Assembly: GCF_002836515.1 (NCBI RefSeq)
Contig: NZ_PJBC01000060.1
Span: forward strand, 62,001 to 126,000
DNA from: Pseudomonas sp. Choline-02u-1
GTDB lineage: Bacteria > Pseudomonadota > Gammaproteobacteria > Pseudomonadales > Pseudomonadaceae
Length of the DNA: 64,000 nt
Direction: 5' to 3'
Part shown: piece after piece, positions 20,061-61,534 of the stretch
Layout: each line of letters starts with the position of its first letter
Numbering within the stretch: position 1 is the first letter of the stretch
Translations under genes and position numbers: made by a program
The notes under the pieces: model-generated
Told to the model about the DNA's origin: nothing
What the model saw: only the letters and a program-made list of their open reading frames with translations
Databases searched by the model: none

Positions 20061-21134
20061 TCAGTTTCTGACGTGAGCCAGGCGCCGCGCGGCGTCTGTC
20101 AGCAACTGTTCGGTAGCGCCGAAGCCGAGACAGCCATCGGTGATCGATACACCGTAGCGTAGAGACGAGCTCAGCGACTGACAGCCTTCGAACAGGTGAG
20201 ACTCCAGCATCATGCCAATCAGCGAATGGTTGCCTCGCAAACGTTGTTCGAGCACATCGTTGAACACCGCTGGCTGACGCAGTGGATCCTTGCCGCTGTT
20301 GGCATGGCTGCAGTCGACCATGATCCGGTTGGGGATCTTTAGTCGGCTGAGTTCGGCGCTGATTTTGGCTACGCTGGTTGCATCGTGGTTTGGCCCTTGA
20401 TGACCACCGCGCAGCACGATGTGTGTGTCCGCGTTGCCGGCAGTCTGCACAATCGCCGGATGCCCTTGGCTGTCCACGCCGAAGTGCCGATGAGGGTGGG
20501 CTGCCGAGCGCATGGCGTCGACAGCAACGGCGGCGCCGCCATCGGTGCCGTTCTTGAAGCCCACCGGCATGTTCAAGCCACTGGCCATTTCGCGGTGGAT
20601 TTGCGATTCGGTGGTGCGGGCGCCAATGGCCACCCAGCTCAAAAGGTCATCGAAGTAATTGGCAGCCATGGGTTGTAGCAGTTCGGTGGCGATCGGTAGT
20701 CCGAGCTGGATCATTTGCAGCATCAATTCGCGGGAAAGCGTGAGGCCGGCAGCCATGTCGTCAGTGCCGTCCAGATGCGGATCGTAGGCCAGGCCTTTCC
20801 AGCCCACTGTCGTACGAGGCTTTTCGACGTAGGCGCGCATGACCAGCAGCATTTCACTGCTCACATCCTCGGCCAGGTGCGCGAGTTTGCTGGCATATTC
20901 GAGTGCCGATTGCGGATCATGGATGGAGCAGGGGCCAACGATGACCAGCAGGCGTGGGTCTTGACCGTTGAGGATGGCGCGCACCGCCTGGCGATGGGCA
21001 TTGACTTGCTGAAGCAGGGAATGACCGAGCGGTAATTGCTGTTTGAGCTGCAGCGAGCTGGGCAGACGCAGGGTCAACGCTTCGTTGGCAGAATCGAGGG
21101 TGGACAGCGGCAAAGCGGAAGCGGAGGAGTTCAT
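20061..21134 (-). CDS. 3-deoxy-7-phosphoheptulonate (DAHP) synthase, type I
   Basis: 357 residues, class I-alpha DAHP synthase of the AroF/AroG/AroH group. It condenses phosphoenolpyruvate and erythrose 4-phosphate, the first step of the shikimate pathway. Visible signatures: LVIVGPCSIHD, MRAYVEKPRTTVGWKGL, ATELLQP, SWVAIGARTTESQ, GFKNGTDG, HIVLRGG and VDCSHANSGK. The start at ATG 21134 has an AGGAAG site; the frame runs further upstream without homology. The long leader (21135-21595) encodes an aromatic-rich peptide followed by a terminator and a second Tyr-rich small ORF, which indicates control by aromatic amino acid supply through attenuation. The feedback specificity (Tyr, Phe or Trp) cannot be read by eye. 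Confidence 0.95.
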   Translation of the reverse strand: MNSSASALPLSTLDSANEALTLRLPSSLQLKQQLPLGHSLLQQVNAHRQAVRAILNGQDPRLLVIVGPCSIHDPQSALEYASKLAHLAEDVSSEMLLVMRAYVEKPRTTVGWKGLAYDPHLDGTDDMAAGLTLSRELMLQMIQLGLPIATELLQPMAANYFDDLLSWVAIGARTTESQIHREMASGLNMPVGFKNGTDGGAAVAVDAMRSAAHPHRHFGVDSQGHPAIVQTAGNADTHIVLRGGHQGPNHDATSVAKISAELSRLKIPNRIMVDCSHANSGKDPLRQPAVFNDVLEQRLRGNHSLIGMMLESHLFEGCQSLSSSLRYGVSITDGCLGFGATEQLLTDAARRLAHVRN

Positions 21135-21181
21135 ATTCGTTCTTCCTGGGCGGATGGCGGGTATTTCCCGCTCGCTCGGCC

Positions 21182-21334
21182 CTACTGGGGTGTTCGACAA
21201 ATGGCCGTACTGGCTGGGCGCGTATGTTTGCCACCTGTAGGTGACCGATCGGAGGCGGCAGGCTGTCCCGAGCGGAAGCTGGTAAATCGCCAGGCGCTAA
21301 AGCTGTCGTAACGGTAATAAGTGGCGTAGTTCAT
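21182..21334 (-). CDS. Small Tyr-rich ORF in the DAHP synthase leader (second leader peptide)
   Basis: 50 codons from ATG 21334 to TAG, with a textbook TGAGGA ribosome site 7 nt upstream. Four of the first nine residues are Tyr (MNYATYYRY), followed by Phe12, Trp15, Phe17 and Phe20; the remaining 30 residues are unremarkable. It lies between the intrinsic terminator at 21390-21419 and the DAHP synthase start, ending 47 nt before it. A small hairpin (GCGGG-N5-CCCGC, 21157-21171) stands between this ORF and the ribosome site of the synthase gene. A ribosome-stalling role in control of the synthase is inferred from composition and position. Confidence 0.6.
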   Translation of the reverse strand: MNYATYYRYDSFSAWRFTSFRSGQPAASDRSPTGGKHTRPASTAICRTPQ

Positions 21335-21389
21335 GATGTATTCCTCAAAGTGTGGTGTGATGCTGAAAGTTGTGGGCCTGAAAAAACAA

Positions 21390-21419
21390 AACCCCCGGTC
21401 GGGAGGCCGACCGGGGGTT
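21390..21419 (-). terminator. Attenuator (intrinsic terminator) of the DAHP synthase leader
   Basis: A perfect 13-bp GC-rich stem (AACCCCCGGTCGG and complement) with a GAGG/CCTC loop, followed on the minus strand by TTTGTTTTTT at 21381-21390. It lies after the stop codon of the aromatic leader peptide (21467-21595) and upstream of the synthase, the standard place for a transcription attenuator. Confidence 0.88.
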
Positions 21420-21466
21420 GAGAAATCTCTGGTAGGCGACCCGTTATCATGGGCGCCGTTTGGGTA

Positions 21467-21595
21467 TCAGGCGCGCCAGTGGCTAAACCAATACCCAAAA
21501 TAAAAAGTGGCAGGAGCGCAGGTTTCATTCACCCGGACAGCCGCAACCGAGCGCAGGGCGCTGGCGATGCAAGACTGTGAAGGGGCGTTGAACAT
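21467..21595 (-). CDS. Aromatic amino acid leader peptide of the DAHP synthase attenuator
   Basis: 42-residue peptide with a CGGAGA ribosome site 8 nt before ATG 21595. Residues 31-40 are FYFGYWFSHW: seven aromatic residues (three Phe, two Tyr, two Trp) in ten codons, directly before the stop. The strong terminator at 21390-21419 follows about 48 nt later. The RNA over codons Phe33-Gly34-Tyr35 (TTTGGGTAT, 21491-21499) is perfectly complementary to ATACCCAAA just beyond the stop codon (21459-21467), giving the expected 1:2 pairing of an attenuator. Low charging of aromatic tRNAs should stall the ribosome here and permit read-through. Confidence 0.8.
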   Translation of the reverse strand: MFNAPSQSCIASALRSVAAVRVNETCAPATFYFGYWFSHWRA

Positions 21596-21631
21596 GGTCT
21601 GTCTCCGTTGAATGCGCCGAGCTTACTCGAC

Positions 21632-21647
21632 GCTGATACGCGTCAGC
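21632..21647. promoter_or_regulatory. Near-palindrome upstream of the DAHP synthase leader
   Basis: GCTGATACGCGTCAGC is a near-perfect dyad located 37-52 nt upstream of the leader-peptide ATG, where a promoter or operator is expected. No consensus -35/-10 pair is convincing here. Operator function is a guess. Confidence 0.3.
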
Positions 21648-21738
21648 AATCAGAAAATGCTATTGCCTGCTGCCCGAAACGACTATCAGTGGCAAACCAG
21701 ACGGGTGAATCGCATTTTACGGTTACGGAGAAAACCGA

Positions 21739-22182
21739 ATGATCTACTGGATTCGCCATGCCACGGTCGACGATCTGGCTTTTGCGCGGGATCTGACCTG
21801 TCGCAACATGCTGCGCTATTACATCGATCATGATCTGCTGTGGCAGGACGAGGCGTTTGACGCAGGCTGGCAGTCTCGTGAAAACTGGATAGTCCTGCAG
21901 GGTGAAACGCCAATCGGCTTTTTCAGTCTGAGCCAGGATGCACGGGCGCTATACATACGCGAACTGCAAATTGCTCAGGCCTGGCATGGGCGGGGTGCCG
22001 GTTCCTGGTGCATAGACCAGGTTATCGAGATGGCTCGTCAGGCAAGACGACCCGCACTCAGGCTGACCGTGTTCGAGAACAACCCGGCGCAAGAACTGTA
22101 TGCACGCAAAGGGCTGCACAGAGTGGGCAGGGACGAGTGTTTCATCAGGATGCAGCTTGATTTGAGTACAGCTGTGCGCTGA
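21739..22182 (+). CDS. GNAT-family N-acetyltransferase
   Basis: 147-residue stand-alone GNAT domain. The central strand ALYIRELQIAQAWHGRGAGSW contains motif A (Q/R-x-x-G-x-G/A as WHGRGAGSW, the acetyl-CoA pyrophosphate loop), and LRLTVFENNPAQELYARKGL is the C-terminal motif B. It transfers an acetyl group from acetyl-CoA to an amine; the substrate is unknown. GGAG ribosome site before ATG 21739. It is divergent from the DAHP synthase leader and 127 nt upstream of gacA. Confidence 0.88.
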   Translation: MIYWIRHATVDDLAFARDLTCRNMLRYYIDHDLLWQDEAFDAGWQSRENWIVLQGETPIGFFSLSQDARALYIRELQIAQAWHGRGAGSWCIDQVIEMARQARRPALRLTVFENNPAQELYARKGLHRVGRDECFIRMQLDLSTAVR

Positions 22183-40300: not shown

Positions 40301-41496
40301 GCGTGCAGCCCAAACGCGACGAACCCGAGCCCGGCGCAGGCGCACCTTCGATGTTCAGCAGCTTCGTGATGGCCGGTTTTGAGTGTTCCAGTCAGCGCCG
40401 CCAGGACGGTCGGCGTCTCGACCTGTTGGCAGACACCGGGCATGCGCGTTGGGTGGAAGAGGATTACCAGCGCCTGGGCGCCTTGAACATTCGTTGCGCC
40501 CGAGACGGCTTGCGCTGGCACTTGATCGAACGCAGCCCCGGGCGGTATGACTGGAGCAGCTTTGTGCCCATGCTCAAAGCCGCGCAAGCGCGGCAGGTGC
40601 AAGTGGTCTGGGACTTGTGCCACTACGGTTATCCGGATGATCTGGACATTTGGCGCCCGTCGTTCGTCGAGCGCTTCGCCCGTTTCGCTGGAGCCGTTGC
40701 GAAGCTGATGACCGACGAGGGCGTGAGCGTGCCGTTCTACTCGCCGATCAACGAGATTTCGTTCTGGAGTTGGGCGGGGGGCGATGTCGCTTACTTCAAC
40801 CCGAACGCGCGCGGGCGTGCACAGGAACTCAAGCATCAACTGGTGCGAGCCAGCATTGCTGCGATCGAAGCGATTCGCGGGCAGGCGCCGAATGCACGCT
40901 TCGTCCAGTGCGACCCGCTGATCCATGTGATCGCCGGATCCCGGCGCAGCGATGAAGTCGAAGCGGCCGAAGCGTATCGGCTGTCGCAGTTCCAGGCGTG
41001 GGATTTGCTCACCGGTCGCCAATGGCCGGGGCTGGGCGGGCAGGAACGCTACCTGGATATCATCGGTGCGAACTTCTACCCGCATAACCAATGGTATTTC
41101 CAGGGGCGGCGCATTGTTCGCGGCGAAGCGGACTATCGTCCGCTGGCCGGGATGCTCAAGGAATTGCACCAGCGGTACCAGCGGCCGGTGCTGCTTGCCG
41201 AGACCGGCGCCGAGGATGACGAACGCCTGCCGTGGCTGAGCTACGTTGTTGATCAGGTGGGGAGTGCGCTGGAGCGCGGTGTGCCGGTGCAAGGCATCTG
41301 CTGGTATCCGTTTCTCGATTATCCCGGTTGGGACGACGGCCGTTATTGCCCGACCGGCGTGTTTGGCTACGCGGATGGCGAGGGCGCGCGCGCGGCGTTT
41401 CATCCGTTGCATGTCGAGCTTGCGCGAGTCCCGGAGCGGATCAACGCACGGTTGCGCAGGCTCAATGACGGGCGATTGGAGGGGCGACCAACATGA
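40297..41496 (+). CDS. Clan GH-A glycoside hydrolase / glycosidase-like protein
   Basis: 399 residues, no signal peptide. A (beta/alpha)8 barrel resembling GH1/GH5-type enzymes: YSPINEISFWSWAGG carries the presumed acid/base Glu153, and VLLAETGAEDD the presumed nucleophile Glu302, about 150 residues apart as expected. WDLCHYGYPD and NFYPHNQWYF are barrel-strand segments. Cytoplasmic location with glf and an exporter suggests a role in trimming or transglycosylating a lipid- or nucleotide-linked intermediate, but the substrate is unknown. Its start overlaps the glf stop and its stop overlaps the next start (both ATGA), so the four proteins are made together. Confidence 0.8.
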   Translation: MSVQPKRDEPEPGAGAPSMFSSFVMAGFECSSQRRQDGRRLDLLADTGHARWVEEDYQRLGALNIRCARDGLRWHLIERSPGRYDWSSFVPMLKAAQARQVQVVWDLCHYGYPDDLDIWRPSFVERFARFAGAVAKLMTDEGVSVPFYSPINEISFWSWAGGDVAYFNPNARGRAQELKHQLVRASIAAIEAIRGQAPNARFVQCDPLIHVIAGSRRSDEVEAAEAYRLSQFQAWDLLTGRQWPGLGGQERYLDIIGANFYPHNQWYFQGRRIVRGEADYRPLAGMLKELHQRYQRPVLLAETGAEDDERLPWLSYVVDQVGSALERGVPVQGICWYPFLDYPGWDDGRYCPTGVFGYADGEGARAAFHPLHVELARVPERINARLRRLNDGRLEGRPT

Positions 41497-60559: not shown

Positions 60560-61534
60560 ATGAGTGTTCTGGTAACGGGGGCCGCAGGTTTTATCGGTTA
60601 TCACACGGCCATGCGATTATGTCGCGAAGGACTGGAGGTTGTTGGGCTCGATAATCTCAATCCTTACTACGACGTCAAACTCAAACAGGCGCGGTTGCAC
60701 AGACTGCAAGCGCAGACCAACTTCACTTTCCATCGGCTGGACATTGTTGACCCGTCGGCACTCACCGCGCTGTTCGAACACGGCCAATTCCAACAGGTCA
60801 TTCACCTCGCCGCGCAGGCCGGAGTGCGCTACTCGCTGGACAATCCTGAGGCTTATGCGCAATCGAATCTGGTCGGATTTCTCAACGTCCTGGAAGCCTG
60901 CCGACGTCATCCGCCGGAACACCTGATCTACGCATCGAGCAGTTCGGTGTACGGCGCCAATACCCGAATGCCGTTTCGCGAAGACGACAGGGTCGACCAG
61001 CCGGTTTCTTTGTACGCTGCGACCAAACGCGCCAACGAACTACTCGCCCACAGCTACTGCCATCTCTACGGCGTGCAAGCCACCGGTCTGCGCTTCTTTA
61101 CCGTTTACGGCCCCTGGGGGCGGCCGGACATGGCGCTGTTCAAATTCACCGAAGCGATGCTGCAAGGGCGCGCCATCGACATCTACAACCAAGGCGAAAT
61201 GGCGCGGGATTTCACTTATATCGATGACATTGTCGAAGCGATTTTTCGACTGCTCGACAAACCGCCCGCACGCAGCGCCGAGCGTGGTACCAACCGTTTG
61301 TTCAATATCGGTCGCGGCAGTCCGGTGGCGCTGATGAGCTTCGTTGAATGCCTGGAACAGACGCTGGTCATCGAGGCGCAGCGCCGTTATCTGCCGATGC
61401 AGGAAGGCGACGTATTGAAAACCTGGGCCGACGTGTCGGCACTGGCACGCTGCATCGACTTCCGCCCCCAGGTGCCGATCGAGCAGGGCGTGCAAGCGTT
61501 CGTGCAGTGGTATCGCGAGTTTTATCAGGTCTGA
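60560..61534 (+). CDS. UDP-glucuronate 4-epimerase (NAD-dependent epimerase)
   Basis: 324-residue extended SDR. GAAGFIGYHTA (NAD loop), GLDNLNPYYDVKLKQARL (uronate-epimerase family signature), SSSSVYG, catalytic YAATKRANE, and FFTVYGPWGRPDMALFKF. The NPYYD signature distinguishes it from GalE and points to UDP-GlcA/UDP-GalA interconversion. It complements ugd in the adjacent operon. GAGG ribosome site before ATG 60560. Transcribed away from the operon. Confidence 0.92.
   Translation: MSVLVTGAAGFIGYHTAMRLCREGLEVVGLDNLNPYYDVKLKQARLHRLQAQTNFTFHRLDIVDPSALTALFEHGQFQQVIHLAAQAGVRYSLDNPEAYAQSNLVGFLNVLEACRRHPPEHLIYASSSSVYGANTRMPFREDDRVDQPVSLYAATKRANELLAHSYCHLYGVQATGLRFFTVYGPWGRPDMALFKFTEAMLQGRAIDIYNQGEMARDFTYIDDIVEAIFRLLDKPPARSAERGTNRLFNIGRGSPVALMSFVECLEQTLVIEAQRRYLPMQEGDVLKTWADVSALARCIDFRPQVPIEQGVQAFVQWYREFYQV

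Follow-up and report, generated by a model that had tools for sequence, protein, structure and literature searches.

What controls the entry into the shikimate pathway in Pseudomonas? The question is raised by a locus of Pseudomonas sp. Choline-02u-1, in which a gene for DAHP synthase, the first shikimate enzyme, is preceded by a short reading frame full of aromatic codons and by an intrinsic terminator. The stretch of DNA that was analysed, here called the window, is 64,000 nucleotides long. A preliminary description of its sequence had proposed a likely attenuator at this place, which consists of the following parts:

21606-21603, minus strand: Shine-Dalgarno sequence (SD) GGAG, upstream of the ATG of leader 1
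21467..21595, minus strand: leader 1 (L1), ORF of 42 aa plus stop, peptide MFNAPSQSCIASALRSVAAVRVNETCAPATFYFGYWFSHWRA, from the ORF list and its translation
21476..21505, minus strand: control codons of L1, Phe-Tyr-Phe-Gly-Tyr-Trp-Phe-Ser-His-Trp, from the translation
21491..21499, minus strand: segment A, TTTGGGTAT (GGGTAT codons), exact 9-nt complement of segment B
21474-21470, minus strand: segment B', GCGCC, pairing with C; B' and B together span 21459..21474
21467-21459, minus strand: segment B, ATACCCAAA (ATACCC, 3' of the stop), pairing with A
21451..21457, minus strand: segment C, GGCGCCC, with B' or D as alternative partners
21431..21442, minus strand: segment D, GGGTCGCCTACC; in folding, 21437-21431 pairs with the E core GGTCGGC at 21412-21406
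21390..21419, minus strand: intrinsic terminator, arms E (21419-21407) and F (21402-21390), U-tract to about 21381
20061..21134, minus strand: DAHP synthase of the AroFGH type, 357 aa, SD AGGA at 21147-21144

All parts named in the preliminary description were recovered: the 42-codon ORF with its ribosome site, the seven aromatic residues of FYFGYWFSHW near the stop, the 13-bp terminator with its U-tract, the exact 9-nt complement of 21459-21467 with 21491-21499, and the downstream DAHP synthase, which scores 442.6 bits against NCBIfam aroFGH (cut-off 173.2). The seven aromatics fall within ten codons and are followed by Arg-Ala-stop, and the terminator has ten G-C pairs among its 13, a loop of 4 and the tail TTGTTTTTTC. 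The window has 221 ORFs of 15-80 aa with an upstream SD, if nested starts are counted separately; L1 alone among them has more than five aromatics in any ten codons. The layout of an aromatic leader plus a terminator is not a product of chance. Five aromatics in ten codons are also seen in SD-preceded short ORFs at 41281-41496 and 61415-61534 of the window (both plus strand), perhaps by chance. A search of 21100-21800 for a sigma-70 consensus promoter was negative.

Identity with Rfam P15 and spread of the element

Part of the locus belongs to a catalogued RNA family:

21392..21509, minus strand: match to Rfam P15 (RF00627), 134.3 bits, gathering score 70

The match extends from the aromatic codons through the terminator stem and identifies P15 as the same RNA. 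Rfam files P15 as a Pseudomonas sRNA, function not given, and its model includes neither the start of L1 nor the second aromatic leader (ORF2) that lies between terminator and gene. Of 298 Pseudomonadaceae genomes, 244 have P15, with 239 of them scoring above the cut-off; these 244 represent 14 of 19 genera. None of the 14 control genomes has it. Genome G247 has two full-score matches on contigs C5 and C15, which reflect a duplication or a mixed assembly.

The conservation of the locus was followed in 100 loci fetched by P15 (L001-L100) and 80 fetched by similarity of the DAHP synthase (L101-L180), in which the leader-finding script sought YW and WRF-like strings. The truncated L173 was dropped throughout, so that 179 loci were usable, and the related genomes in all these counts are not independent samples. 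A DAHP synthase lies downstream in all 100 P15 loci examined, and in 99 of them an ATG ORF has an aromatic cluster at its end, the exception (L057) being cut by a contig end; L1 is partly guaranteed in this set because P15 covers its aromatic codons, which is not so for ORF2. Among the 79 usable loci fetched by the gene instead of P15, L1 was found in 74 and ORF2 in 75. The totals for the 179 loci are 173 with L1, 174 with ORF2 and 172 with both. In 162 of 163 loci, the ATG of L1 and the GYW codons share a frame; the distance between them takes 15 different values. The L1 word TGGTTTA is kept in 176 of 179 loci, and a strict terminator scan from L1 to the gene was positive in 160 of 173, with CCCCGG there in 12 of the other 13. 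The preliminary description had named a lack of conserved aromatic codons or terminator in related genomes as evidence against its proposal; both are kept.

The aromatic leader occurs in Halomonadaceae, too. The 80 gene-fetched loci include Halomonas, Chromohalobacter, Cobetia, Halotalea, Franzmannia, Onishia and Salinicola; four Salinicola loci missed by the script harbor GGCTATTGGTTTAG and a terminator-like hairpin, without the ORF2 word. An order-wide search retrieved a DAHP synthase from 112 of 115 genomes, and 29 loci were examined. L203-L205 among them are Pseudomonadaceae, L206 and L208-L210 have both the L1 and the ORF2 word, and L207 has L1 and the terminator without the ORF2 word. 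In L211 and L212, from another family of the order, the region some 280 to 145 nt upstream of the DAHP synthase contains one aromatic leader ending VFFWWFGYGFYFSQS, together with TTTTAGC and a terminator hairpin, and the ORF2 word is absent; this single leader may represent an older or a parallel form of the same control. Neither word is present in the other 19 of the 29 loci. At its gathering score, the Rfam P15 model matches L033, L048 and L206 and misses L170, L178, L180, L159 and L211 in a set of eight further loci.

The window's genome encodes two DAHP synthases that are 54% identical. By eye, no such leader is located upstream of the second one (L182, G000:C4:96536-97570), which is followed by a gene that presumably resembles the lipoprotein OprI. 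In P. aeruginosa, we take PA1750 to be the orthologue of the DAHP synthase downstream of L1. The 20 tested of the 54 genomes lacking P15 have a single DAHP synthase match each, with an identity of 50-53%, and therefore the other type only; their upstream regions contain no L1 word, ORF2 word or terminator word. P15 thus appears to come and go with this one DAHP synthase. A wider regulon was rejected on the number of hits in the genome, three for the ORF2 word and one for the L1 word. The two ORF2-word hits away from the locus are exact TGGCGATTTACC sites at G000:C2:51969-51980 and G000:C11:12417-12428.

Alternative folds and probable transcription attenuation at L1

Attenuators of his and trp operons combine a leader ORF with control codons, a chain of mutually exclusive hairpins and an intrinsic terminator. 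Transcripts ending before F were folded with the ribosome set on the Trp codon or at the stop. The stalled folds of L003, L159, L172, L206, L207 and L209 show B':C plus D:E-type pairing, and the at-stop folds of the same six loci show C:D and then the terminator, C:D of L003 being partial until F is made. The mutually exclusive structures for which the preliminary description had suggested RNA folding are hence predicted in six loci, but L211 retains C:D when stalled and L178 is unclear, having no clean B':C. Three of 19 loci in one folding set were dropped for want of a terminator call; for L208 and L210, the terminator used in folding was the wrong one. On a larger scale, the E region forms a mean of 8.86 pairs with upstream RNA in the stalled state and 6.70 at the stop (166 loci, six dropped), and its pairing is greater when stalled in 151 of the 166; the excess of the stalled state is modest, because dinucleotide shuffles already give 7.47.

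Covariation was assessed in 38 representatives. B':C reaches a score of 0.126 compared with 0.062 in shuffles (0/500 as high), 83.3% of its cells are paired and nine cells are changed on both sides versus 3.3 in shuffles, all of them in one pair, a pair count that is matched by 495 of 500 shuffles. A:B and C:D together have 89.0% of cells paired and no covariation beyond shuffles. On inspection by eye, several Halomonadaceae have GGCA/TGCC in place of the C:D pairing GGCG/CGCC. In a swap test, for which five of 43 loci were dropped and the D stretch partly overlaps C, cognate B:C is stronger than swapped (24 of 38 loci) and none of 1000 permutations is as strong; the corresponding number is 34/1000 for C:D and 166/1000 for D:E, the latter without measurable covariation. 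This test is not specific because the pairs B:D (4/1000) and B:E (39/1000) outside the model also give a signal. The B':C / D:E switch is a prediction from folding and conservation.

The attenuator upstream of DAHP synthase, as envisaged in the preliminary description, is well supported by the gene association, the frame, the conserved codons and the alternative folds, and we regard it as highly probable that L1 is a ribosome-mediated transcription attenuator of the his/trp kind acting on the first shikimate enzyme. L1 is probably translated, to judge from its SD, its ATG and the kept frame. With charged aromatic tRNAs, the ribosome would reach the L1 stop, C:D would pair, the terminator would form and a short RNA, namely P15, would be released. 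A shortage of charged Phe-, Tyr- or Trp-tRNA would halt the ribosome in FYFGYWF, where it masks A; B' could then pair with C, D would be free for the 5' terminator arm, and the polymerase would read through into an RNA that carries ORF2. We infer that the terminator functions in the cell and that starvation relieves it. This scheme proposes a function for an Rfam RNA that is listed without one and was once suggested to be a riboswitch. The entry into the shikimate pathway of Pseudomonas is likely to be controlled by the charging of aromatic tRNAs, which matters for the engineering of aromatics in P. putida and its relatives.

The codons indicate what L1 may sense. In 162 distinct L1 peptides, the C-terminal 14 residues contain a mean of 2.51 Phe, 2.48 Tyr and 1.42 Trp, hence about 6.4 aromatics, versus 1.6% in the body of L1, and all three amino acids are present in 162 of 162; the enrichment of Tyr and Trp is partly built in because YW was a search string. 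The codon content by itself suggests a sensing of all three aromatic tRNAs, as proposed in the preliminary description. Aromatic tRNAs share an iron-dependent modification.

Three other readings of L1 and P15 have to be weighed. A single tRNA might count and the other aromatic codons be passengers, a serious possibility to which we give somewhat less than even chances: according to the accessible part of a review (PMC11802643), Phe limitation acts on the aroF leader of Corynebacterium glutamicum (aroR) and Tyr limitation does not, but Phe, Tyr and Trp recur together in every one of the L1 peptides, the Tyr and Trp part of this finding being search-built. That P15 is a trans-acting sRNA with its own targets, the leader ORF being incidental or the released RNA having a second job, would agree with its place among the sRNA genes of Rfam and with trans-active attenuator products such as peTrpL of Sinorhizobium (PMC7298713, as far as its available text goes); we consider it improbable given that the L1 frame and the aromatic codons are kept and that P15 tracks this one DAHP synthase. 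An untranslated P15, acting as a riboswitch or a protein-bound terminator, would accord with the suggestion of a riboswitch made from synteny by Livny 2008 (PMC2527527, accessible part), but a frame maintained at 15 distances with conserved aromatic codons makes this very hard to believe. The attenuator reading of L1 is preferred. It does not give the full picture, since past the terminator comes a second aromatic leader; neither this leader nor the identity with P15 is part of the preliminary description.

A second aromatic leader between terminator and gene

The interval between terminator and DAHP synthase contains the following features:

21182..21334, minus strand: ORF2 (leader 2), 50 codons with stop TAG, SD GAGGA at 21346-21342
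21281..21292, minus strand: ORF2 core TGGCGATTTACC (Trp-Arg-Phe-Thr), from the comparison of loci
21230..21275, minus strand: H-type pseudoknot inside ORF2, S1 21275-21268 with 21252-21245, S2 21259-21254 with 21235-21230
21191..21196, minus strand: CGA ACA (Arg-Thr) near the ORF2 stop, Arg being CGA in 151 of 153
21148..21182, minus strand: hairpin from the ORF2 stop to the DAHP synthase SD, from folding versus base shuffles

Of 179 loci, 174 have ORF2 between terminator and gene. In all 100 P15-fetched loci, this interval contains an ATG ORF with four or more aromatics among the first 30 residues. Measured from the TGG word of ORF2, the closest ATG with an SD lies in the same frame in 168 of 169 loci, and 14 different distances occur. 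Up to Trp-Arg-Phe, the peptide is 37% aromatic, mostly Tyr, and 1.4% past it. The motif TGGCGATTTA followed by GC, CC or GT is found in 163 of 179 loci; within Trp-Arg-Phe, Arg is encoded by CGA in 168 and Phe by TTT in all of 171, and CGAAC[AG] follows the core in the same frame in 138 of 151. Elsewhere in ORF2, CGA accounts for 94 of 664 Arg codons, and the background usage in four window ORFs (one read with an in-frame upstream extension) is 23% TTT for Phe and 12% CGA for Arg. The nearly fixed choice of CGA and TTT at the core is indicative of a constraint on the ORF2 RNA. Substitutions in ORF2 number 132, 133 and 174 at the three codon positions, 114 being silent and 173 not, and the mild bias for position 3 would fit a peptide whose body matters little. 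The Trp codon is lost in L046, which kept GGCGATTTAGC, and L094 and L097 lost the ORF2 word. No NCBIfam or Pfam family matches the L1 or the ORF2 peptide up to an E-value of 10; a conserved small protein was rejected for both, given the missing family match and peptide bodies that vary freely. The string TGG(CGA)TTTA is common to the two leaders (TTTA at 21487-21484 and 21286-21283), and codon sensing requires neither its TTT nor its A.

The pseudoknot follows the ORF2 word in loci with a long ORF2, i.e., in fluorescens/syringae-type Pseudomonas and Halomonadaceae; it was not seen by eye in the short ORF2s of the stutzeri/aeruginosa type. In 37 representatives, 90.9% of its cells are paired, with 13 both-sided cells compared with 3.9 in shuffles and five covarying pairs compared with 2.2 (both 0/500). 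Four of the five covarying pairs belong to S1, where 27 of 37 representatives leave one pair (columns 24-48) unpaired. When the partners are slid by +3, 11 both-sided cells are obtained, but only 53.1% of cells are paired. For L172 and L174, small shifts improve the pairing as judged by eye, for which the gapless alignment gives no credit. The hairpin before the SD has a mean z of -2.87 versus base shuffles and is below -1 in 135 of 141 loci; L058 and L168 are exceptions to it.

Several explanations of ORF2 were dismissed. A known riboswitch was rejected, since Rfam at gathering score returned no riboswitch or leader family for ORF2 (P15 hits only, in the window and eight further loci). The pairing of TGGCGATTTA with a nearby partner was rejected on a mean duplex energy of -12.0, hardly better than the -11.5 of the shuffled motif; in 105 of 158 loci the best duplex was located between the stop of L1 and ORF2. 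The corresponding energies for CGAACA are -5.5 and -6.5. A programmed -1 frameshift at TTTA before the pseudoknot was rejected on reading of the sequence because TTTAGC (109 of 168 loci) puts a TAG in the -1 frame.

The ways in which ORF2 might work differ in their probability. A classic translational attenuation, in which a stalled ribosome frees the SD of DAHP synthase, would be suggested by the aromatic codons of an ORF that adjoins the gene upstream, but the predicted opening of SD and start is 0.464 without a ribosome, 0.495 with one stalled at Trp and 0.453 at the stop, and greater when stalled in 84 of 150 loci (14 without a recognised start dropped); the folding does not support a sequestration of the SD by ORF2, and we regard this mode as unlikely. 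Nascent-peptide arrest of the TnaC type, replacing codon sensing in both leaders, could account for the almost invariant G-Y-W-F-S and W-R-F, but silent positions are constrained (TTT and CGA of the ORF2 core), the residue after WF varies in Halomonadaceae and the A of TTTA stays, and L046 has its RNA word without the Trp codon; this is less credible still. A control of Rho access or of translational coupling, with the ORF2 tail as Rho entry or the hairpin linking stop and gene start, is a tentative option: 50 of 65 short ORF2 tails and 43 of 80 long ones have a C/G ratio of at least 1.5, versus 11.8% of 45-nt windows, and the hairpin lies between the ORF2 stop and the SD of the gene. Against it, a C bias is a common property that does not prove a Rho site, and the stall site of ORF2 is upstream of the stretch that would need protection.

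We favor, with reasonable but limited confidence, ORF2 as a second ribosome-read control. For its action we infer that the aromatic codons, Tyr above all, which precede a near-invariant RNA word, make the position of the ribosome on ORF2 the probable determinant of a second expression step. A more speculative proposal, which we advance as a working model that may well be wrong, is that DAHP synthase of Pseudomonadaceae and Halomonadaceae is controlled by two serial aromatic-codon leaders with different outputs: L1 would decide on termination, and ORF2 would be a new ribosome-read element in which ribosomes slowed at Tyr/Trp and two fixed CGA codons control the pseudoknot, or its equivalent in the other clades, for the second expression step, the shared TTTA being the site of a common factor. 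To our knowledge, the mechanism of ORF2 is explained by no known attenuator. With its near-invariant RNA word, two fixed CGA codons and a pseudoknot within its reading frame, ORF2 is an easily cloned object.

Comparison with known systems

The control of a DAHP synthase gene by an aromatic leader is already known from C. glutamicum, whose aroR leader with Phe-Tyr-Phe precedes aroF and raises transcription upon ribosome stalling (PMC11802643, PMC4046766, accessible text). This arrangement corresponds to the one described here; it belongs to another phylum, Tyr is reported to be without effect, and the portions available mention neither Trp codons nor a second leader. The uORFC-13-1 motif before aroF of Acholeplasma, proposed by comparison (PMC8632094, partial text), likewise places a uORF and a terminator before a DAHP synthase gene. 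It differs in its range (Acholeplasma and environmental sequences) and in the codons named (at least one Phe), and the part at hand mentions no second leader. The accessible text of PMC6429828 refers to shikimate-linked uORFs containing Phe and Tyr.

The Rfam His_leader model gives 20.8 bits with the window's terminator, below its gathering score of 49, and the peptide strings GYWFS, FGYWF, YGYWF and YYRYDW were not found in the literature text covered. In the literature covered on DAHP synthase leaders, P15 and tandem leaders (few subscription papers and no supplements), neither this attenuator nor ORF2 is described. DAHP is absent from the main text of a premature-terminator study (PMC2965389), as are DAHP, PA1750 and P15 from that of a 3'-end map of P. 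aeruginosa (PMC8297930). The accessible part of the latter reports premature ends and a potential uORF with a GTG start for trpGDC, possibly a sister attenuator. Judged by these searches, three points are new: the interpretation of P15 as this attenuator, its occurrence in Halomonadaceae, and ORF2.

With the enteric his and trp attenuators, L1 shares the leader ORF, the control codons and the terminator, and also the mutually exclusive hairpins as far as these are predicted. The locus differs from them in its mixed Phe, Tyr and Trp codons, in a second leader after the terminator, and in invariant RNA words for which codon sensing does not account.
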